Source: Aurantiochytrium sp. KH105
Lineage: Eukaryota; Sar; Bigyra; Thraustochytrida; Thraustochytriidae
Length of the DNA stretch: 64,000 bases
NCBI GenBank assembly: GCA_003116975.1
Contig: BGKB01000004.1
Location: forward strand, 310,001-374,000
Direction of reading: 5' to 3'
Shown piece after piece: positions 1 to 62,100 of this stretch. The notes under the pieces were generated by a model. It searched no databases and had not been told where the DNA came from. It worked only from the letters and a program-made list of their open reading frames with translations. Made by a program: the position numbers and the translations under genes. Numbering within the stretch: the first letter of the stretch is position 1; the number at the start of each line of letters is the position of its first letter.

Positions 1-536
1 GGGTTGTCGAGGCCCACGTGCAGCGCCTCGCAGGCAAATGTCAAGGTTTCTTGCTTGTGGGCTTCGAGTGGTGACGCAATAACGAGACGCTCTGCGTTGT
101 CGCGCGTGACCATGTAGACGAGCTTTTGCTTTTCGACGGCGGCCACCATGATGGCGCGGCCCGAAGGGTCAACAGCGATGTATTGCCCCGCTACCGCGCG
201 GCGACAGCCGCTCTTGCCGTATTTCTCGCAGTGCGTGCGCACAAAGCGGCCTGCCTTGGCCTCGTAGGAGAGCACGGCAAGCTGGCCCGAGTCGGAGCCA
301 ACGACGAGGACATCCTTTGTGGCGCCGCTTGGCCGAAGGGCGCGCACGCTACGGCACACGCCAAAGGCCTCGGCTACACAGAGCGAGCGCACGCCGTTCC
401 CGTCGCAACGGAGGAGCTCGAGTCGCGCGCCGTGGTTCACGACGACCTCGTGCGCCTTGGCATCGCCACTGAAGTTGCCGTACACGGCGCCGCCGCACCC
501 GCCGCCGGCAGTCAGGCCCAGCGCGTACAGGTGCAT
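1..536 (-). CDS. SF3B3: Splicing factor 3B subunit 3 (SF3B3/RSE1), N-terminal part, runs off left edge
   Basis: This is the first 178 codons of the SF3b 130-kDa subunit, a beta-propeller scaffold of the U2 snRNP that contributes to branch-site recognition and is related to DDB1 and CPSF160. Translating the minus strand from the ATG at 536 gives a start like MHLYALGLT, then VYGNFSGDAKAHEVVV, LVVGSDSGQLAVLSYE, KYGKSGCRRAVAGQYIAVDP and SPLEAHK. These line up block by block with the known SF3B3 N-terminus (GNFSG, VVGSDSG, FGKSGCRR, AVDPKGRA, EKQKLVY, SSPLEAHK). The frame is open to base 1 with no intron. The full family protein is about 1,200 residues, so most of it lies outside the window. A 186-codon frame on the opposite strand over this stretch is a shadow. 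Confidence 0.95.
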   Translation of the reverse strand, partial: MHLYALGLTAGGGCGGAVYGNFSGDAKAHEVVVNHGARLELLRCDGNGVRSLCVAEAFGVCRSVRALRPSGATKDVLVVGSDSGQLAVLSYEAKAGRFVRTHCEKYGKSGCRRAVAGQYIAVDPSGRAIMVAAVEKQKLVYMVTRDNAERLVIASPLEAHKQETLTFACEALHVGLDN

Positions 537-1385
537 CGCGCCACGCCCTCGCGGGCCTCTTTTGCTGCCCTTCTTCTCCGCAAGCCCGCCTGCACGAGCT
601 TGCTCGGACGCGCGCTGCGCTCGCGGTCGTTGCTCCTCTGCCCCACTCGCTTGGACAGCGAGCGGCGTATCCTCTCTCGCGCTTGATGATGGGGCGCCGT
701 TTTGGGGGCCGATAGGGACCCCGATTTCAGGGTACGGCGCACGGGGGAAAAATTGAGATCGTCGCGATGAACCAACCAACAAGATCTGTCGTGGCAAGAG
801 CAGCAACAATGAATGGGGAGCAGGCCTTTGGACAATGATAATAAGGTTTTCATGGATTTGATTGCACGAAGAAAGTGTCGTTGTTGATGGTTTTTGTTGG
901 GTGTCTGTGCCAGAAAAGTCGAAAAAGGATCATTGTTTGTAGCCGCCCGCGAACTTCACATGACGACTCGGCGATAATGCACTCAAGTTTGTAGTACTAT
1001 TTTTTCTAACTAATCAAGGCTCTCGCGCAGGTCGACATGGGACCAAAACGATAACCAAATTATTAAAATTTAACTCGTCACCTCGTTCGCAGCGACTCCA
1101 GAGGATGATTGAATCAAACAGCCCAGAATGAGTGAGGATAAGACACAACAATCAAAAATCAAAACGACGCCTTGGCAGGGCGACAAACAACTTGGGCGAT
1201 GACTGAATGAACAGGAGCAAAGAGGAAATCTTCAAAGAAGATGAAATCTTTGAAATCTTTGCAAACAATCTCTCATTTGCCACAAGAACTGTCTCTCGAC
1301 GCGCCCTCGCTCCGTAGCGAGCGAGCCAGCGGGCGGGCAGGCAGGCAGGTAGCCAGGCAGGTTAAGAAGTGCGGGCGAGCGCGAG
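537..1385. promoter_or_regulatory. Divergent intergenic region between SF3B3 and the secreted-protein gene
   Basis: The two flanking genes are transcribed away from each other, so both promoters must lie in these roughly 850 bases. The centre (about 950-1230) is AT-rich compared with the flanks and has an AT run near 1058-1075. Next to the right-hand gene, GGCA-type short repeats occur at about 1334-1362. I see no gene here. Confidence 0.5.
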
Positions 1386-2078
1386 ATGATGCGAGGACGC
1401 GTGTGGACTCTGGCCTTTGTGGTCTGCGCAGCTGCGTGGGCCAGGGCACTCGGCAGCATGTCTTCACCCTCGGTCATTTGCAACTTTGACGCAAGCTGGA
1501 GCCGCTTTGTCCTGCGGCACCCGGACAGCGGCGCAAGGGTGAGAGTCTTACAACGGACCGGGCCTGGCGATGAAGATCATCAGGGAATTGACATGAACGT
1601 CGAGCGTCTTGACCCGAACAAGAAGTTGAATCAAGGGCGGCAGCATCATTCAGGAGAAAAAGGGACCTCCAAGGCCCAGCAGCAGATGCCCTCATCGAGG
1701 CCAAGAATATCGAGCAGCATGGAGGGCAGATTTGTGCGAAGCTCTGTCAAGCTGCCAAAAACTATTCCTGCAAGTGCACTCGTGTGGACCTCTATCGATG
1801 GGGCCGTTCATTTCGTCCGCGTAGAATCGCGCACAAAGAAATTTGCCTATCATTGGTTCGAGTACCATGGCAACAAGCTCTTCGCGCACTTTGTTGAGAC
1901 TGACATGATGAAGGAACCTGAGCTCCGCGCATCCCTTTGGGACCCGGCGCGTACCATGTGGATCGTGCTCGCTCCGGGCCAAGCGCGCTGGGTTTCTCAA
2001 GATGATCCTGTCGAGGTTCATCAATCGTTGCCCAATCTTCTTTTCAAGGGGACTTTTCTAGACAACGGCAAAGCATGA
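1386..2078 (+). CDS. Predicted secreted protein, unknown function
   Basis: I do not recognise a family for this 230-residue product. The N-terminus looks like a cleavable signal peptide: MMRGR, then a hydrophobic stretch TLAFVVCAAAWA ending in ARA-LG, which fits an A-x-A cleavage site near residue 21. Residues 60-115 are polar and probably disordered, rich in K, S, Q and R. The last 110 residues look like a beta-rich folded domain with aromatic pairs (HWFEYHGNKLFAHFVE, ARTMWIVLAPGQARWV). There is only one cysteine in the mature part, so it is not a disulfide-rich effector. Two adjacent ATGs (1386, 1389) are possible starts. The clean frame and plausible signal sequence support a real gene, but no homology was established. 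Confidence 0.6.
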   Translation: MMRGRVWTLAFVVCAAAWARALGSMSSPSVICNFDASWSRFVLRHPDSGARVRVLQRTGPGDEDHQGIDMNVERLDPNKKLNQGRQHHSGEKGTSKAQQQMPSSRPRISSSMEGRFVRSSVKLPKTIPASALVWTSIDGAVHFVRVESRTKKFAYHWFEYHGNKLFAHFVETDMMKEPELRASLWDPARTMWIVLAPGQARWVSQDDPVEVHQSLPNLLFKGTFLDNGKA

Positions 2079-2090
2079 CATATTCGTCTC

Positions 2091-2340
2091 GACGTGCATG
2101 GACGTTTTGAGCAAATGTCACGATGCCATGTCTCATGAAGCTCCGAAGCACTCCATCAAATTGGTCATCATTCTCTCGTGCATACCTGCGATGGACTTAC
2201 AATTTCAAAACCTCTTCACAGGTGAGCAATCAAATGCAGACGTGCATCGATGTGCACGCGCGTCTTGAGCAAAATTTGCGATGTGGTGTCTCATGAAGCT
2301 CCGAAGCACACCATCGGGTTGGTAATTCTCTCGCGCAAGT
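2091..2340. repeat. Imperfect direct repeat of about 100 bp, two copies
   Basis: Copy one starts at 2091 and copy two at 2239, both with gacgtgcat. Both contain ttgagcaaa, then tgtctcatgaagctccgaag at 2129 and 2287, then a ccatc...ttggt...attctctcg stretch. The offset drifts from 148 to 158 bases, so the copies have diverged by small indels. They lie directly after the stop codon of the secreted-protein gene, in its likely 3' region. Confidence 0.8.
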
Positions 2341-3977
2341 CACTATGGTCACTGCTCCCACCCATTAAGCCCCCTCCCCAACCCTCCCGAAAAAAAGCAA
2401 GAGGTAGGCCCTAGATCTCGTGTCTGCCTCTCAACATATCGCTACCGTTGCGATGATGAGACCCACTCGCTCGTCCATCAATCGATCGCACGGATCATAC
2501 GTACCAATCTCTATCGCCCGGGCCCTTCAAGTTCATCATTCGTTCTTTCGTTCTTTACGCTTCTTCGGCGTCACCGCACCCTCCTTCACATCGCGTGCTC
2601 TTCCTAGGAGGAAGCCTGGGCGCCGCGACCAAAGGCAACTTCCACGCGTCGCATCTCTCGCGCGCCTTTGCCACTATCGCCTCTGTGCAGCTGCCACTCA
2701 ACACCCACCGCCTCGGCCGCCATCGTGGCGCGGCCCTCGCGGACCGATTGTGTTTTTCACGCGCTGTTATATACCAACCTCACCCGAATCCCATGCACGC
2801 ACGCGCGCGCTGCACGGCGACCACCACAACCTCAGCTGGGCGCTCGTGATCAGCTGCAGCTGGCTGATCGATCGCCATCATCCCCGTGAACTCCTCCGGC
2901 ACGCGCTTGGCCGACATCCGCATGCCGTCCTCAGCCCCGGCCTTGTCGCATCGACCTGCTGCAGCCGCAGCTTTCGCGACTCCTACGTGGCCTCCGAGGC
3001 CTCGCACGCTGCTGCAGCTGCTTCTGCTGCGCTGCTGGTGCTGCAGCGCGGCGTCCTGGAGCGATGGGATCCGTGTCGGCGACCGCGGACTTCATGGAGT
3101 TGCGCAGCATCGACAGGATAATTAGAGTAGAAATGGAAGAGAGACGCGCCGTGTGCACGCGCTGGCTCGGCGGGGCCAGCGCCGCCACGGCCGGCACGAG
3201 GTCCGGGACCCGCGGCAAACCTGCGGCGAGGCGAGGGCGGAGGGAGGCAGCGAGGGAGGGAAGGAGGAGGGAGGCACGCACGTGCGCGCCAAGGAGGGGG
3301 GGAGCGAGGGAGGGAGGGAGGGAGCGAGCCGAGGACGGAGCGAGAGCGAAGACGGCACTGGTTCGAGGCGCGGCCGCACGTGCCGCTGTGCACTAGTGGT
3401 TGGGGGGCGAGCGGCATGGAATGGAGACAGTGGAGAATAAGGATTTACCACTGCAGCTGCGGGCGGCGCGTGCGCGGGAAGGAGGGGTGGCGAGGTGGGT
3501 AATGGAGGACAGGGCGTGGTAGAGGAGACAAGGGTAGAGTGTAGAACAGTGGTAAAGGTCTGCGATGTGGGTAAATATGCAAGGGTTTCGGAGTGGGCGT
3601 AGGACAGAAAGATGCGGGGGAAGTACCCGCACAAGCGAGTGGAGAGAGGAGGGGAAACGGCGGCAGTGGATCGCGGGGGGTCGCCACTGGGGCTGTCCAA
3701 TGGCGCACGATTTGCAAGCGGAGATCAATTCCAGTTCCACCTACCTTGAGCGAGGAGCACGCGCGCGCGCTGTCGCTCACGGCCGTGCGCCCGTCGCCCG
3801 CGGCGCGCCGAGGCTCGCGGACCTTCTCTTCTCTTGCCCGCCCATTCGCGCGCGCGCATACCGCGGTCGGGGTGGCTGTCGTTTCTGATTCGAGCTGGCG
3901 CTCGAGGCAGGTATCGATTGTCGTAGAAGAAGGGACAGGAGACCTTGCCTTGGTGAAGCAACAAGCTTTTCGGCAAG
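2341..3977. other. Intergenic, no supportable gene; purine-rich tract
   Basis: Several overlapping open frames of 75-230 codons occur on both strands, but all have low-complexity, arginine/alanine/serine-rich translations typical of GC-rich noncoding DNA. About 3225-3350 is a purine-rich tract of gggagg/gaggga units on the plus strand. The last few hundred bases should contain the promoter and leader of the downstream transporter. Confidence 0.5.
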
Positions 3978-5314
3978 ATGAGCTGCGACATGTATGGCGA
4001 TCTGGACACGATCCTGAGCAACAGCTCGTCCGAGCTCAGGTCTGTCATCTGCAATAATGAGACCTTTTTGGACTCCTGCCTCGACGCTTGCGAGCAAGAG
4101 GACTGCAATGACTCTGGCGATTCGACCCTCGATATTGTGTACACGGTGGTTATCCAGGTGCTTGTGTTTCTTCTTGTGTTTGGCCTGGCGGGATCGGTAG
4201 GTACGTGAAAATGAAATGCGGCGTCAAGCCCTCACATCGCCTCGCATCACGTGCGATTGAAAGTGTCCACAGGCAGGTGTGCTTTCTCGCTCCTCGTATG
4301 AACTTGTGCGCGAATCATCTCATTGGGATCAAGAGACTAACCATTGCTTTTGCCATGCGCGCGACAGACTTTAACCACTTCCATCAGCGATTCCGATCAC
4401 GAGGTGTTTACATTGGTCTTCTGAGCCAATTTATTCTGATGCCTCTCATTGGCTTCCTGGTCGTCGCCATGTTTCAAACCCAGCTCGAGCCCCTGTACGC
4501 TGTCTCGCTCCTTATTATTTGCGCATCCCCTGGTGGCTCATACAGCAACTGGTGGTGCAATCTCGTGAATCTTGACCTCGCACTTTCGGTCGCAATGACT
4601 ACCGTAAGCACCATTTGCAGCGCCTTCATGCTTCCCGTCAACGTCATCATTTATGTCGAGCTTGGCTACAAGAAATTGGACCCGGACAATGCTCAGGAAA
4701 TCATTGACTTGCTTCCGTACACCACAATTGCCTACACTCTGGCAAACGTCATTGTCGCTGTTACCACGGGTCTCTACTTTGGATACAAGTTTCCGGCAAG
4801 GATGAAGACCGTCAATCTCATCGGCACGTGCGCCGGTTTCTTGTCAATTATCCTGGGTGTCGTGGCTAGCTCGACTAGCTGCGCTGAGCCGTGGAACCAG
4901 GATGCCGTTGTGTACTATGGCACCTTGCTTCCGGTCGTCCTGGGCATTGTTCTCGCCATGGGCTTTGCAACGCTCGCACGCCTCCCGCAGCCCCAGCGGG
5001 GTGCCGTCTCCATCGAGACCGCATACCAGAACACTGGCATTTCTCTCGCCGTTGCGCTTTCCCTTGGACCCAAGGGTCGTGCTGCTGCCATCATCCCTGT
5101 CGCATACGGCGCTTGGGAAGCTGTTGTTTTTGGTATTTACGCTCTTATGTGCTGGTACATTGGCTGGACGCTCTCTCCCCCTGAGGAGAAGCTCTGGGTT
5201 ATTCTGGTCAACAGCTACCAGGACCGTATTGAGACTGACCCGCGCTACAATGGTGGCTCCGTTGTGAAAGCGGCCGACAGCAAGGCTGTCGTAACGAGGG
5301 TTCAAGCCGAATAA
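3978..5314 (+). CDS. SLC10-family (bile acid:sodium symporter type) membrane transporter, two exons
   Basis: The product is a sodium-coupled organic anion carrier of the SLC10/NTCP-ASBT fold. Exon 1 is 3978-4200 and exon 2 is 4368-5314; joined they give 389 residues. The N-terminus (1-48) is polar with Cys residues and two possible N-glycosylation sites (NSS, NET), as in extracellular N-termini of SLC10 proteins. The first membrane segment is about residues 50-72. The family core follows: GVYIGLLSQFILMPLIGF, ICASPGGSYSNWW, LDLALSVAMTTVSTI, and the sodium-site helix ETAYQNTGISLAVAL (compare ETGMQNTQL in animal members). About nine membrane segments are visible; the C-terminal tail is short and soluble. 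Substrate cannot be read from sequence; bile acids are unlikely in a microbe, so a sulfonate, steroid-like or other organic anion is possible. Confidence 0.93.
4201..4367 (+). other. Spliceosomal intron in the SLC10 gene
   Basis: The donor is gtacgt at 4201 and the acceptor ends gcgacag at 4367, giving 167 bases. Exon 1 ends with the first base of a codon (g) and exon 2 begins with ac, so splicing restores a GAC codon. The reading then continues from the first membrane helix into the next conserved block. Without splicing the first frame stops at 4206-4208. It is the only intron I can support in the window. Confidence 0.88.
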
Positions 5315-56124: not shown

Positions 56125-56379
56125 TTAGTCGGCCATTGTGTAGTCGATGAAGCCATTCTTTTCGATCACCTTAATCAATGATTTATACATGGACAACAAT
56201 TCACCTTTGCTGCCTTTCTTTTCTCGAAAGAAATCGACACCCATTCGCACGATGCGCTCGAGCACGTTCAGTCGGTGCTGAGTTTTCTGGCCATGTGNGG
56301 ATCCCTTTCGCCCACTGCCAACAACGCAGGCACGGTTGCTGGCTGGCTGGTGGAACGCCAGAACACAATCGCAAGACAC
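56125..56379 (-). other. Short open frame, possible gene fragment, with one undetermined base
   Basis: The C-terminal 50 residues of this 84-codon minus-strand frame (RLNVLERIVRMGVDFFREKKGSKGELL onward to a stop after YTMAD) look more protein-like than anything else nearby, with mixed charged and hydrophobic residues and normal composition. I do not recognise a family. The base at 56298 is N, so the frame upstream of it is uncertain. It may be the last exon of a gene or a remnant of an older mobile element. Confidence 0.3.
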
Positions 56380-56640
56380 GCGCGATGTCTTTTGCAGCCA
56401 GCCGGCAGCAGCGCCGCTGGCGATGGCCTCTTGCCGTCGCTGTCAATGTGTTGCCTGCCGCTGCCCCTGGTGGAGGGAAAATCTTTGGGGACGCTCGCGA
56501 GAACAAAGGGCGGATTTCGTAATCATCTTAGAATGTTGGCCGGAGAAATAAGCTAGTTCGGGAAAATTACAAGAAGAGGCCTAACCCTGATTCTGGTTTC
56601 ACATGTCATCCACTGGGAAGCGGGGTGTTGAGAGGTGGCA

Positions 56641-56663
56641 GATCATCAATAGACAATATGCAT
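56641..56663 (+). repeat. Left terminal inverted repeat
   Basis: The 23 bases starting gatcatcaatagacaatatg are exactly the reverse complement of 61708-61730. Identity stops at 56664. Confidence 0.95.
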
Positions 56664-56954
56664 CGTCGAAAGAGCCCTATTTCGCTCCAAACCTACCTCT
56701 TCGGCCAAAGTGGCCTATTTACCTTGCGCGATTTTGGGATCCTTGTTCACCTTGTGCATTATCAATTCCCTCGTGCGAAGTCGACCCGTCGTGGTCTGCG
56801 CGCTGGTGGGAGTGTCGCGAGTTGGAAAGCACATTGGTCAGGCTAGTGCCTCGCGAGCTCTCACAGCTGCCCCAAGCGTATATACAACGTTTTTGACGTT
56901 CGACGAGCTCGGTCTCCGTGGTGGTGGTTAGGTTGTCCGCACGTCGTGGGCCTG

Positions 56955-58994
56955 ATGTCGGGCGCGCTTGCAGAGCAAATGTCGGCTGTGAAATCGCCTA
57001 GCAATACGAAATGTTCATGCACACTGAAATGGTGCCAGAATAAACAAGGTCCTTTCCGCACTTCCGAGATTTACAGAAGCAACCGTCACACGAGAACAGA
57101 TGCAGCAGCACTTCGCGAGAGCAAGGCGCGAGATGTAATATTCAACAGATTGCGGCAGAATGTTGCTACAGGGACAAGAGCAAGAAGCCGCTTCCGCTGG
57201 CATCATTTTAACCCAAACTCTTTTGAGTTCGACACACGTAAGACGAACGATTGGGTCTTGAAGTCTGATATAACCCAAGTGATAGCTGCCGAAACGGCAA
57301 TGTCTCCTCCACCGGCTGGTGAGAGGGCTGTATGGAAGACTAGCAAATGGGTACTGGCGAGCGATAAGCTCACACCAAAGTCGATAGCGGAGCGCAGACT
57401 CACAAGTCACATCGCTTCGCCTGAGCGCAGTCAGGCAAAACGCTGTCGAACATCGCGTGCCCGCTATGCAGAGAGTGACGCTGACTATGAGCGCACCCAG
57501 AAGGCGCGAAAGCTTGACGCGAAGCTTGAAGTTGCGAACCAGAGGAGTGATGAGGCAAAGAATGAAATTAGGCGACTGTCACATGAGGCCAGCTCTGCTA
57601 AGAAACGTGCGCAGGCTCTCCTTGTCAAGACCTCGAATGCAAGCCAAGCTGACGCTCGTGCTAATACTCTCTCAGAGAGATTGGCAACTCTTACGGATTT
57701 CACGATTAATGAACTCCAAAGCGACAAAGAAAAGCTGACAGTGTATAATCAGAAACTGACAACAGAGAACAAAGAGCTTCAAGCTGAACTCCAGAAGCTC
57801 CGTGAAGAACGAGACGCTGCCGTCAGCGATTCCAAACAGGCCAAGAAAGAAGCGCGGGCGAAGGCCAAAGAGGCGAAAGATTATTACGCCATTTTGCGAG
57901 AAGCGGTCACAAAAACTTCTTCTTCTCAAGTTCCTCTAAGGTGGGCATCTTTCAAGTCGATTCCGCGCTTCGCCAGAATACTTCGATTTTACACTGGCGT
58001 CAGCGGCGTATCTGCTTTCGACGAAATAGTGTCTGCAGTCCATAATTTCGGTGGCTGTCACGCGAAGCAGCGCAGTGCAGCTACCGCCAAGTGGCAGAGC
58101 TTTCGTGAGGACAAGGGGTTCGCGAAGTCTGAACAAGGACTGAAAAAAAAGCTCAATAGGTCCGAAGCCTCGGACAGTCTTTCAACTCCGTCAAGCAGAT
58201 CGCCCTCTCACCGAAACGCTCCTCTTTTGCTTGAGGACAAACTTCTCATTACGCTGATGATCCTGCGCCTTAATTTGAGTCAGATCGTGATGGGTTCGTT
58301 GTTTGATGTCCACCAATCCACGATATCGCGAACCTTTGAATTCGGCATCCATCTTCTGCATCGTACTTTCTCACGCATGTTTCCAACTCCGTTGCCGTGT
58401 ATGCTGGATGTTACGTGCCCCACAGACGTCTCTGAGCGATTTGGTCACCATACGGTCAGCTGGATTCTTGATGCCACTGAGCTCGAAATTCAAGTACCAG
58501 ACAACCCAATGGCACAGAGTGCAACTTGGAGCGAATACAAGGCGCGCAATACAGCCAAGTTGCTGATTGGTCTGAGTGCTTGTGGTACTATTGCATGGCA
58601 GTCTGCTGCCTATCCAGGACGTATATCAGACCCCAAACTGACAGAGCGATCGGGTTTCTACGAGGTCTGCGCTCACCCGGGTCAAAGCATCATGGCTGAC
58701 AAAGGTTTCGTAATCTTCGATGAGCTGGCCAAGCGAAAGGGTGCATATCTGTACATGCCACCAAAACGATTCAAGGGGCAGCACACGCTTACACGAGAGG
58801 AGGCAAATGACACACGGAAAATCGCAAACTTTCGGATTCACGTAGAGAGAGCAATAAATCGTGTCAAAGACTACCATTGGCTCACTCAAAAGGTCCCAAT
58901 CCACCAGGTGGATATGATAACTGCGGCTTTCAAGGTCGCGTGCTGCCTAGTGAGTCTTAATGGCCCGCCCATCACGGCACCTGCAAAAAAGTAA
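56955..58994 (+). CDS. Transposase, THAP-like N-terminus, coiled coil, HTH and DDE_Tnp_4 catalytic domain
   Basis: This 679-residue protein is a PIF/Harbinger-ISL2EU-type transposase. The N-terminus has a THAP-like pattern: CTLKWCQNK (compare C-x4-C-x-N) and later RWHHFNPNSF (compare C-x2-H-F-x-P-x-x-F), with the third zinc-binding Cys replaced by Arg. Residues about 175-315 are a charged coiled coil. A helix-turn-helix follows (LLLEDKLLITLMILRLNLSQIVMG, QSTISRTF). The catalytic triad is visible as Asp in SWILDATE, Asp in IMADKGF and Glu in RIHVERAINRVK, with the family block AQSATWSEYKARNTAKLLIG between. The frame opens upstream at a GTG (56946); the first ATG is 56955. No intron or stop interrupts it, so it is probably functional. 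Confidence 0.95.
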   Translation: MSGALAEQMSAVKSPSNTKCSCTLKWCQNKQGPFRTSEIYRSNRHTRTDAAALRESKARDVIFNRLRQNVATGTRARSRFRWHHFNPNSFEFDTRKTNDWVLKSDITQVIAAETAMSPPPAGERAVWKTSKWVLASDKLTPKSIAERRLTSHIASPERSQAKRCRTSRARYAESDADYERTQKARKLDAKLEVANQRSDEAKNEIRRLSHEASSAKKRAQALLVKTSNASQADARANTLSERLATLTDFTINELQSDKEKLTVYNQKLTTENKELQAELQKLREERDAAVSDSKQAKKEARAKAKEAKDYYAILREAVTKTSSSQVPLRWASFKSIPRFARILRFYTGVSGVSAFDEIVSAVHNFGGCHAKQRSAATAKWQSFREDKGFAKSEQGLKKKLNRSEASDSLSTPSSRSPSHRNAPLLLEDKLLITLMILRLNLSQIVMGSLFDVHQSTISRTFEFGIHLLHRTFSRMFPTPLPCMLDVTCPTDVSERFGHHTVSWILDATELEIQVPDNPMAQSATWSEYKARNTAKLLIGLSACGTIAWQSAAYPGRISDPKLTERSGFYEVCAHPGQSIMADKGFVIFDELAKRKGAYLYMPPKRFKGQHTLTREEANDTRKIANFRIHVERAINRVKDYHWLTQKVPIHQVDMITAAFKVACCLVSLNGPPITAPAKK

Positions 58995-59012
58995 GCACTG
59001 AATCTTCTTATC

Positions 59013-61473
59013 TCAAAAGCTTACGTCATTCTCTTGATTAGGATCAGCCTCCGCATCATCAGCGCAGAGTTCCGACTCCCAAGCCTCAGAGAGCTCAGGA
59101 GAGATTTTGTCGAGACCTGTCCGTTGTAGCTCGGCAGTCGCGTAGTTGTACCAGAGATCATAGCGAGTTTTCGCCGCATGTTCTTTCGTGTACATAACCG
59201 ACATGCCCGTTTCACCTTCCTCAGTACCTTGCGCGCATACTTCAATGAGCTTGAAGATTTTAGGAATCAATGTGGACTTCTCTCGCATTTGCAAATCCCG
59301 CAGAACGGAATTGACTACAGCAGGAGGGCAGGGGTCGTAGGCTCCACGACCAAGATCATTTGACATGCACACCGGGTTGTGCTTCTTTCTCTGTTCTTGT
59401 TGGGAAGGATCAGCCTTCTCAAAGACGAGATAAGAGATCTCATTGTTCACCAGGTCCTCCTCGACTTTAGCACGTGCCGTGTTCCATTCACAGCGCATAC
59501 TCGTTGGACAGTTGTCGCGCGGGTCTCGGCGACGAAGATTCTGCACGGCTTGTAGCAAAGCACACACGTGCACGCATCCCTGATCAACTCGGGCGGCAGG
59601 GCAGGCGCACATCTGGTCACAGACTTTTGTCACGTACGGAGGCCGTCCGTCCATCGCTTCATGCCATTCGATGGAACAACGCACAAAGACAGGATAGGTT
59701 GAATTGACCATTGACCTTGGGCAGTGAAGCCTGAACCAGCACTCTTTGGCAGGCTTGTCTCCATTCGGTACGAAGTAGGCTGCGAATCCGCGAAGATGTG
59801 TGCGGAAGCAAATGCGCTTGTAACCTTTTCGAAAAACACCTTTCTTCGTACATACGTCCTTGAAATGTTTCTGCAACAACTGTTCCGAGACCAGCGGCGC
59901 TCGCTCTTGCATTTCGCCGATATAGGTGATCCAGCGGTCTGACGGGATGGCGGCAAGTGCAGCCTTGGCTTCGGCGTTGTCTATCAGTGGAAGGTCTACA
60001 TTCCGCCCGCAGTTTCTCAACAGCTGCAGGACGCTGAGGCCCTCTGGGCAACGCAGATTGGTAAGCTGGCGATTCTCTTTCTTTGCTGCTGCTTCAGCAG
60101 CCATTTGGGCACGCACGCTCGCGCGAAGCTCATGCTTTTTCTTGCCAGACGCAAATTGCCCGCGAGTGCGGAGCCAGCGGGCCAACTGGGCAAGCGATGC
60201 TGTGTCAACATGTTCCTCACGCATCTTGGCCCCGATAATAAGGTCTTCTGTGAGCTGCACAGGCTGGACTGTGTCCTGAGGCTGAATCACAGAATAGCCC
60301 CGACCAACGTCATGGTGTTTCGGCTTCTCCCTCTGGCATCCACATCCATCACGCATGCAAAGCAGACCCAGGGAGATGAGGTCCACTTGCTCGCGGTCGA
60401 AGCTTGTTTTGCCGAAACGTACAATGCATCCCGAGTCAATCGCCACCTTCTCATCGAGATAATTGATCTCGCGCTTTGCAAGGTGCAGCGCGATGCCCCC
60501 AAGAAGACCGCCCTTCGCCCTTTTCATGTCCGAGACAACATCCTCTTTGCGTAGTTGCTTCGCGAAAATTGTTGCAGAGAATGTCCGCGAGCTGATCAGG
60601 GTCTTTCCAGCTTTCCAGCGTGACTCCGCGATGCAAGAGCAGCTCCATGACGGACAGTGCCGTTTTTGCCCCAACGCCTTTAAGGTTGTGATAGTCCGAA
60701 TCCACGAGTAACGCGTACGCAAGGCACACAGCGGCCGCCGCTTCACGCGGTTCGCATGCGTGGTGTCCTACAACTCTGTCAATGATAAGACCCAAGTCAC
60801 GTGGACGGTCGCAGAGCGCGTTTGATTCATCTTCTGGCGCAGTATTTGCCGCTGGGTCGTAGAGAATGCCCAAACCGTCCTGCCAGAAGCCCGGTGGGAT
60901 GACAACGACATTTCCGCCGCGGTGAACGAGCATGTCTGAGTCAACTGAGATAATGTATTGGATGGAACCTTCATGGAGCAACGCCACAAGCGTGTGATCT
61001 GCCTCGTAGGGTGCCACCACATAGGGGTATCCCTCCACTCGCAACTGCCTGATGACTGCGTAAACAAGATCACGGGTGACGCCAGCGTTTGCCTTTGAGA
61101 TCTTTTCCATGAGCGCGGTCGAAGGCTCCTCGCCGGCGTTGAGGCAAGCTTGTAGGTCTTCCATCAAACCTTGGACCATTTTATCGCGTTTGTTGCTTCT
61201 TGCAGAGTTCGTGCTTGCCTTTATTTCGTTTGAAACGCCATCGAAGACGACGATAGGGCGAGCGCCCCATGTTTTGAGCTTCTTAAGCCGCCCAATAAAA
61301 CCTTGCACGATGCTAGTGAAGTTGCCCTTTGAGACCTCTTCATGCTGCACGCTCACGTACATGTGCAGCCAGACTGAGGCGTCAATCCCAACATCCTTGT
61401 CGCGCAAGAGTTCATAGAGCTGGACGTTGCGTTGCTTCGAACGTAGTTGTTTGAGCAGCTCCGTAACGCCCAT
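59013..61473 (-). CDS. Transposon partner protein: XPG/FEN1-type nuclease + SAP + SWIM zinc finger (one frameshift)
   Basis: Starts at the ATG at 61473. The first 300 codons are an XPG/FEN1/EXO1-like 5' nuclease with acidic metal ligands present: GIDASVWLHMY, PIVVFDG, APYEADHTLVAL, VDSDML, VDSDYHNLKGVGAKTAL (the last being the helix-hairpin-helix region). Near 60565-60568 the coding frame moves by one base; dropping one base from the run of four restores a continuous frame that runs to a stop at 59013, about 820 residues in all. After the shift come a SAP-like motif (LARWLRTRGQFASGKKKHEL, about 60131-60215) and a SWIM zinc finger (CACP...CVHVC, about 59558-59612). The SAP-SWIM part resembles the second protein of ISL2EU elements, which as I know them end in a YqaJ nuclease; none is seen here. 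Unspliced frames overlap from 60451 to 60746. The shift could be an assembly error, a disabling mutation or programmed. Confidence 0.88.
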
Positions 61474-61707
61474 GGCGACACGAGATCACGCTTCTGGCTT
61501 CTTCGCTCCGAGTCCCACGCGCTCGCTGCTTTTGCGCGCGCAAGCACCCGCGCACGCGCCTCCAGCGCGCAGACAGTCTGCTACGGTTAAGTTGCAGCTC
61601 TGATCTCTTTTCGCGCAAGGCCCTCTCCCTGCTTACCAGTAGTTATTCTGACAGGTGGGGGGTAGATTAAGGAGAAATTGCACGTTTTCAGGCGTTTCAG
61701 AGCACCA
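61474..61707. other. 5' leader of the nuclease gene inside the transposon
   Basis: These bases lie between the nuclease ATG and the right terminal repeat and should contain the minus-strand promoter. A segment at about 61656-61678 is loosely similar, in inverted orientation, to 56679-56699 near the left end and may be a subterminal transposase-binding site. Confidence 0.4.
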
Positions 61708-61730
61708 ATGCATATTGTCTATTGATGATC
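61708..61730 (-). repeat. Right terminal inverted repeat
   Basis: Exact reverse complement of 56641-56663, ending ctattgatgatc. Confidence 0.95.
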
Positions 61731-61774
61731 GATTGCTTGGCTTCTTAACCAAGTCGGCGAATCGATCGATCAAT

Positions 61775-61800
61775 CGATCGTTTGATTGATCAAACGATCG
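61775..61800. repeat. Palindrome with 11-bp arms
   Basis: Arms cgatcgtttga and tcaaacgatcg around a 4-base loop (ttga), 44 bases outside the right transposon end, within a run of atcgatcgat-like sequence. Confidence 0.85.
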
Positions 61801-62100
61801 AGCGAACGCTTCATCGCCTCGAGGATTGACGGGTCGATGGATGACACTTGGCTTGGCTGTGAGTGAGATTCGAAGAGGGGATGCGGAGCGGAGCGATGGG
61901 AAAGAAGCGCGGATCCGGCTCGCTGGACCTGGCGGCAGCCGTGCTGCAGCGTCAGCGGCGGTATGGATGCAGGGTGCGCGGCTGGTTTGTGGGTGGGAGC
62001 AGCGCGGGATCCGAGATCGATCTAGATTGACATGAACGCAAATGCAGCCAACGGGCTTCCATTCAAGGAGCAGTAGTCGTAGGAGGAGGCTGAGTCGCGT

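Follow-up and report, generated by a model that had tools for sequence, protein, structure and literature searches.

A probable ISL2EU-like transposon of Aurantiochytrium sp. KH105 encoding a predicted XPG-family nuclease beside its DDE transposase

Introduction

Can the nuclease that accompanies the DDE transposase of an ISL2EU-type transposon be of a kind other than YqaJ? The question is raised by a locus of the thraustochytrid Aurantiochytrium sp. KH105, located at positions 56641–61730 of a 64,000-nt stretch of contig BGKB01000004.1 (positions 310,001 to 374,000 of the forward strand, assembly GCA_003116975.1). This whole stretch is called the window here, and all coordinates refer to it. 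An initial annotation had described the locus as a complete ISL2EU/Harbinger-like transposon with perfect 23-bp inverted ends, in which the partner of the transposase was an XPG/FEN1 nuclease fused to SAP and SWIM and standing in the place of YqaJ. According to our analysis, the locus is probably an ISL2EU-like (PHIS) two-gene transposon with an XPG-family 5′ nuclease as partner protein, the position that YqaJ occupies in ISL2EU, and this nuclease probably processes 5′ strands during transposition. The XPG-family partner nuclease appears to be new, while the transposon plan itself is familiar. Among the papers listed, none describes an XPG nuclease in a PHIS transposon by title and beginning of the abstract, a search whose scope did not extend to subscription journals and Repbase reports.

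The transposase and nuclease genes

The transposase gene is located on the plus strand at 56955–58994, counted from the first ATG (the open frame starts with a GTG at 56946), and contains no internal stop. Its product consists of an N-terminal Cys/His stretch followed by a coiled-coil-like part, a helix-turn-helix (HTH) and the DDE domain. Pfam matched HTH_Tnp_4 at residues 427–475 (58224–58370; 1.5e-11) and the catalytic domain DDE_Tnp_4 (PF13359), which we take to be the PHIS transposase type, at residues 508–669 (58467–58952; 9.6e-36). Residues D509, D585 and E634 are invariant across the three sequences compared and are assigned here, presumptively, as the DDE triad; we also assume that the DDE motifs of the element resemble those of ISL2EU. 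A CxCx4C...WHHF stretch is conserved as well. The transposase of a second lineage, on host contig C26, also matches DDE_Tnp_4 (1.3e-36). Searching PDB with the transposase alignment gave weak matches only, to the coiled-coil part, and PHROGs gave noise for the window transposase and one weak transposase match (0.0041) for that of C26.

The accessory nuclease gene lies on the minus strand at 59013–61473, convergent with the transposase gene, and the stop codons of the two genes are 18 bp apart. Its product matches XPG_N at residues 1–98 (61180–61473; 5.6e-17) and XPG_I at residues 148–189, with E157, D159, D178 and D180 (60907–61032; 5.4e-8). Alignment with the EXO1-like and FEN1 proteins of the host, whose genes were named by eye, added D260-Y261 and the motif GVGAKTAL (60655–60696), which we take to be H2TH-like. 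D31, D78, E157, D178, D180, D260, K85 and R92 are common to all three proteins, and D159 is D in the host EXO1-like protein and E in host FEN1; the catalytic or binding roles of the aligned residues are presumed to be those known from FEN1/EXO1 work. The XPG metal-binding blocks seen by the initial annotation are present, with the expected acidic residues aligned.

The frame of this gene is broken once in the window copy, by a one-base frameshift at ∼60565, between the XPG part and the remainder, and an intact nuclease gene cannot be claimed for this copy. Compared with the copy on contig C58 over 5.08 kb, the window copy shows 45 substitutions and three gap positions; one additional base at ∼60565 is the sole gap within the coding part, and the other two are at the very end of the stretch. 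The copies on C58, C82, C94 and C107 read through the corresponding site, and the frameshift could be an assembly error. The C58 frame is open and encodes an 819-residue protein (P0001; L066:923-3382). XPG_N and XPG_I scored above the Pfam cut-offs in the window protein and in P0001, and XPG_I scored slightly below in the element protein P0002 (24.5 vs 24.9).

Assignment of the nuclease to the XPG/Rad2 family is firm on these domain matches, and its place within the family leans towards EXO1 rather than FEN1 without being settled. The PDB search with P0001 put EXO1 first (4e-13; profile 4.3e-15), followed by Rad2 and FEN1, and the host-genome search with the XPG part gave 61.9 bits to the EXO1-like frame vs 45.4 to the FEN1 gene. 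Whole-length identity (24% to the host EXO1-like protein and 27% to host FEN1) and NCBIfam, whose best match for P0001 was archaeal FEN1 (2e-17; FEN1 and Rad2 far under their cut-offs, the rest noise), favour FEN1; therefore XPG family is the firm label, EXO1-like is a leaning, and the FEN1 label given at first was too specific. PHROGs gave noise only with P0001.

Copies in the host genome and selection

Contigs of the 76-Mb host assembly are given C-numbers, C4 being the window copy; the genome searches scored the best candidates only, so that copies may be missing. Both genes were found together, in convergent order, at six loci on six contigs (C4, C58, C82, C94, C107 and C26), so that the two-gene Harbinger/ISL2EU-type transposon of the initial annotation is borne out by five further loci as well as by its Pfam matches. 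The C58, C82 and C94 copies are 99%, 93% and 95% identical to the window copy, and the C107 copy is partial, with additional DNA near the transposase end. C26 represents the second lineage: its two transposase matches show identities of 51% and 42%, and its nuclease protein 45% over the C-terminal part and 52% over the XPG pieces. The ends of the C26 element yielded no convincing inverted repeat. Its left end is common to C174, a relative consisting of a transposase locus without partner, which carries a stop and does not continue beyond the transposase gene.

Copies lacking the nuclease, or a stand-alone nuclease gene of the host, had been named by the initial annotation as findings that would speak against its proposal; checked within the host genome, neither point refutes it. 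C28, C256, C36 and C17 are internal-deletion derivatives. C256, C36 and C17 have lost most of the nuclease and also most of the transposase; C256 retains small XPG pieces, and C28, without most of the transposase, keeps broken XPG pieces. Among the matches listed for the host genome there was no stand-alone full-length gene for the nuclease or its C-terminal part, only short fragments at C290, C61, C6 and C15, for which no transposase match was listed.

Nei-Gojobori counts among close copies gave a dN/dS of 0.195–0.544 for the XPG part (≤0.38 in 9 of 10 pairs), 0.17–0.544 for the C-terminal part (≤0.281 in 9 of 10 pairs) and 0.24–0.49 for the transposase (3 pairs). The nuclease gene is under purifying selection. 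Between C4 and C26 the synonymous sites are saturated, and pN is 0.35 for the transposase and 0.37 for the C-terminal part; the two genes are under comparable constraint and have diverged in parallel.

Relatives were sought in IMG/VR with the nuclease protein, the transposase and both alignments, and in prokaryote genomes with the nuclease alignment, in each case by short exact peptide patterns; none was confirmed.

Ends of the element

Window positions 56641–56663 and 61708–61730 are perfect 23-bp inverted repeats bracketing the two genes, and the element measures ∼5.1 kb (5090 positions across both repeats). The repeat described by the initial annotation is present, and the element probably ends inside it. 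Homology between C4 and C58 spans element positions 7 to 5083 out of 5090, so the outer bases of the repeat are absent from C58 on both sides. Each 23-bp end is probably made up of target bases and an inverted repeat of 13 to 16 bp; a genuine 23-bp repeat that was lost at both C58 ends is less likely.

Nine copies were compared for end motifs, and C4, C58, C28 and C256 for the boundary and duplication. AATAGAC was found at the left end in all four of the latter and GTCTATT at the right end in C4, C58 and C28, while the sequence outside these motifs differed from copy to copy. Assuming an AT duplication, the element proper would extend from 56651 to 61720, or from 56648 to 61723 if AAT/ATT count as part of the ends. 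The 13-bp inner portions of the 23-bp repeat, at 56651–56663 (plus strand) and 61708–61720 (minus strand), would then be the left and right terminal inverted repeats. The outer portions would hold a target duplication and a palindromic target: 56641–56650 is probably the target GATCATCA with AT at 56649–56650, and 61721–61730 is probably AT at 61721–61722 with the palindromic target. Joined, the flanks of the window copy would give GATCATCAATTGATGATC, a perfect 18-bp palindrome, which would account for an inverted repeat that appears 23 bp long. The inverted repeat is perfect in the window copy and, at the AGAC boundary, matches at 11/12 bases in C58 and 6/12 in C28. With AGAC...GTCT as boundary, C4, C58 and C28 read A-AT at the left end and AT-T at the right, which is compatible with, and does not prove, an AT duplication in A|AT|T. 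No 3-bp direct repeat occurred in these three copies among the boundaries tested, which weighs against the TWA duplication of Harbinger and the ANT duplication of Pangu.

The left flank of the window copy (56299–56639) is the end of another repeat, which stops at GAGAGGTGGC, a single base short of the 23-bp repeat. This flank is matched at seven other places in the genome, and the three that were read diverge at GAGAGGTGGC; an empty site was not recovered from them. G+C content was 0.50–0.56 in six 1-kb bins over the element vs 0.58–0.62 in four bins outside. A scan of the gene junction for promoter or terminator found nothing.

C-terminal part of the nuclease protein

PDB matches span about the first 200 residues of the nuclease protein, and the ∼500 C-terminal residues match none of the EXO1, Rad2 and FEN1 nucleases. 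No Pfam family matched this part, whole or in pieces, apart from weak matches below cut-off. Between the two lineages its 40-residue blocks are up to 70% identical, dropping to 24–35% at the end.

SAP and SWIM motifs are features of ISL2EU partner proteins, and both had been named in the initial annotation. Neither stands as a firm label. The SAP-like stretch at residues 429–446 of the C58 protein (60135–60188, minus strand) has no Pfam match. A home-made SAP profile built from 18 host sequences gave P0001 an E-value of 0.31, above 199 of 200 shuffles, and the C26 protein 5.1; the eight best non-shuffle entries all hold the element's own SAP-like stretch, and SAP may be kept as a weak lead. 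The SWIM-like CxCx8CxH motif (C622, C624, C633 and H635; 59568–59609, minus strand) is conserved in the C26 lineage. Its general form CxCx(6-25)CxH turned up in 59 of 5000 shuffles of P0001. Against a home-made SWIM profile of four host sequences P0001 scored an E-value of 25, with 16 of 200 shuffles scoring better, so that SWIM denotes a motif and no profile match. Searching the genome with the Pfam SWIM and SAP families listed 9 and 52 places, respectively, none of them within the element. The Cys/His-rich C-terminal part probably binds DNA or the transposase.

Another conserved Cys/His cluster (C372, C377, C379 and H387 of P0001) lies at residues 372–387, after the XPG part and ahead of the SAP-like stretch, and is possibly another metal site.

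Relation to known transposons

The element resembles ISL2EU in its DDE transposase with HTH, in its second open reading frame (ORF) with a nuclease domain and in ends compatible with an AT duplication in A|AT|T. In the part of Han et al. (2015; PMC4482050) that deals with ISL2EU, the target duplication is given as AT within A|AT|T, the average length as ∼4.84 kb, against ∼5.1 kb here, and the second ORF as having a YqaJ domain and DNA binding; the same part reports ISL2EU from animals only. The element differs by a nuclease of the XPG family instead of YqaJ and by a transposase in which THAP was not detected. Pfam found no YqaJ match in the element proteins P0001–P0003, and the genome-wide Pfam search placed YqaJ at two sites, both outside elements (L071 and L072, on C11 and C50). 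XPG domains in an element without YqaJ agree with the initial annotation. The replacement that it proposed is inferred, not observed, as no relative carrying YqaJ came to light for comparison with the element. A distinct ISL2EU-related lineage in which an EXO1-like XPG nuclease took the place of YqaJ, two unrelated 5′ nucleases having been recruited to one accessory step, is a tentative reading that we hold to be possible and somewhat doubtful.

The two YqaJ frames, of 305 and 309 codons, are stand-alone and apparently alleles; by eye they contain neither XPG nor CxCx8CxH, and both adjoin a long frame resembling a Mtr4-type helicase.

Several points count against an ISL2EU-like element with an XPG partner. 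The repeat of the element begins with AG, whereas ISL2EU usually starts with GG. Pfam and a directed search, whose control also matched nowhere, found no THAP in the transposase. The AT duplication does not count as independent evidence, because the anchor motifs AATAGAC and GTCTATT themselves include AT; AAT/ATT may be part of the repeat; C4 taken alone is also compatible with a GATC duplication; and C256 has an altered right end, with only a 3-bp AAT match. End motifs or inverted repeats were not recognisable in C82, C94, C107, C36 and C17. Among the nuclease genes, that of the window copy is frameshifted, that of C82 has an open frame in which the acidic D180 is replaced by G, that of C94 has a stop within the XPG part, and that of C26 lacks the N-terminus and is frameshifted.

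With PIF/Harbinger the element shares a related DDE_Tnp_4 transposase family and two genes. It differs in that Pfam found no Myb/SANT match in the partner and that C4, C58 and C28 show no 3-bp TWA duplication. AcademX, whose nuclease is of the XPG type, is likewise a DNA transposon lineage encoding a nuclease, and differs by its transposase superfamily (Academ) and by duplications of 3 or 4 bp. According to PMC10045372, AcademH and AcademX carry genes for both a helicase and a nuclease. With EXO1, Rad2 and FEN1 the element protein shares XPG_N and XPG_I, the acidic residues and the H2TH-like motif; it differs in being encoded by a transposon and in its ∼500-residue C-terminal part, which matches none of them. 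As a loose parallel only, PMC3493329 counts both FLAP/XPG and YqaJ nucleases among the genes with which large DNA viruses replicate, recombine and repair their DNA.

Possible roles of the nuclease

EXO1 and lambda exonuclease act 5′-to-3′, and YqaJ shares the lambda-exonuclease fold. The element has two convergent genes, for a DDE transposase with HTH and for an XPG/Rad2-family nuclease that is perhaps nearest EXO1. The transposase would cut at the short inverted ends and insert with a 2-base stagger at AATT, and the nuclease would process 5′ strands during transposition. It might resect the broken donor site 5′-to-3′, which would let the element be restored by repair from a homologous copy, or it might remove 5′ flaps of the donor flank. 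Because EXO1 and lambda exonuclease both act 5′-to-3′, resection at the donor site is our first choice, and TnsA-like removal of 5′ flaps at the ends is its main rival. YqaJ enzymes could do a like job, which would explain why either nuclease serves as partner.

In Tn7, TnsA makes the 5′ cut beside the DDE enzyme TnsB, and a second-strand (5′) cut of this kind may be what the element nuclease makes at the transposon ends. After the 3′ ends were cut or joined, the donor DNA would remain as a 5′ flap, to be removed by the XPG-family enzyme. The comparison with Tn7 concerns the way of working only, in that a nuclease distinct from the DDE enzyme deals with the other strand; Tn7 is bacterial and its proteins are unrelated. 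FEN1-type enzymes use 5′ flaps as substrate, K85 and R92, presumably flap-binding, align with conserved positions of host FEN1 and the EXO1-like protein, and the best NCBIfam match is archaeal FEN1. However, EXO1 outscores FEN1 in the PDB and host searches, and related Harbinger elements have Myb/SANT partners and no nuclease in the account given in the part of PMC4482050 on those elements, and we consider the second-strand cut unlikely. That the pairing is an assembly artefact or chance adjacency could be argued from the frameshift of the window copy; six loci on six contigs in the same convergent order leave this practically no probability, and it was dropped since independent copies rule it out. 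The nuclease gene could also be a passenger, an XPG gene of host type that was captured and plays no part in transposition, given that transposons are known to capture host genes and that this host has its own EXO1-like and FEN1 genes. Identity to these host proteins is only 24–33%, though, and the gene is present in two diverged element lineages; no full-length copy outside elements was among the matches listed, and 18 of 20 close pairs over both gene parts have a dN/dS of ≤0.38 (the other two 0.544), which makes a passenger very unlikely.

The remaining alternative concerns classification, in that the element would belong to another PHIS group such as Pangu or form a separate new group. It draws on a second ORF without YqaJ, on the 3-bp AAT match of C256 and on the AG with which the repeat begins if cut at AGAC. 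In the passages of Han et al. (PMC4482050) on Pangu, its repeats often begin with AG or GG, its second ORF is without known motif and it is reported in one heterokont. Pangu duplicates ANT (3 bp), however, vs no 3-bp direct repeat in C4, C58 and C28 at the tested boundaries, and according to the same passages (PMC4482050) the DDE motif is the only domain of its transposase, whereas the element has HTH_Tnp_4. We regard this placement as improbable beside an ISL2EU-like element with an XPG-family partner.

If two unrelated nucleases can serve as partner, the accessory step would be nucleolytic, probably on 5′ strands, and open to test by exchange or inactivation of the nuclease. Its identity, as 5′-strand processing or donor-site resection, would then become identifiable. 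The element would broaden the range of nucleases known in eukaryotic DNA transposons and hints that differing cutting enzymes can fill the same helper role.

Other observations

A GATC-rich stretch is located at 61721–61810, to the right of the transposon. The derivatives on C36 and C17 (L006 and L007) are short and MITE-like, retaining ∼370 bp of subterminal sequence along with 100 bp of the transposase gene. Open frames of 508 codons on C181 (L019) and C70 (L020) match only the N-terminal Cys/coiled-coil part of the transposase, with no DDE match listed; they are 91.6% identical to each other and perhaps alleles. Similar loci also occur in pairs on two contigs at C18/C89 (93%) and, as fragments, at C290/C61, and together with the C181/C70 pair (91.6%) these suggest that the assembly may in places hold two haplotypes.

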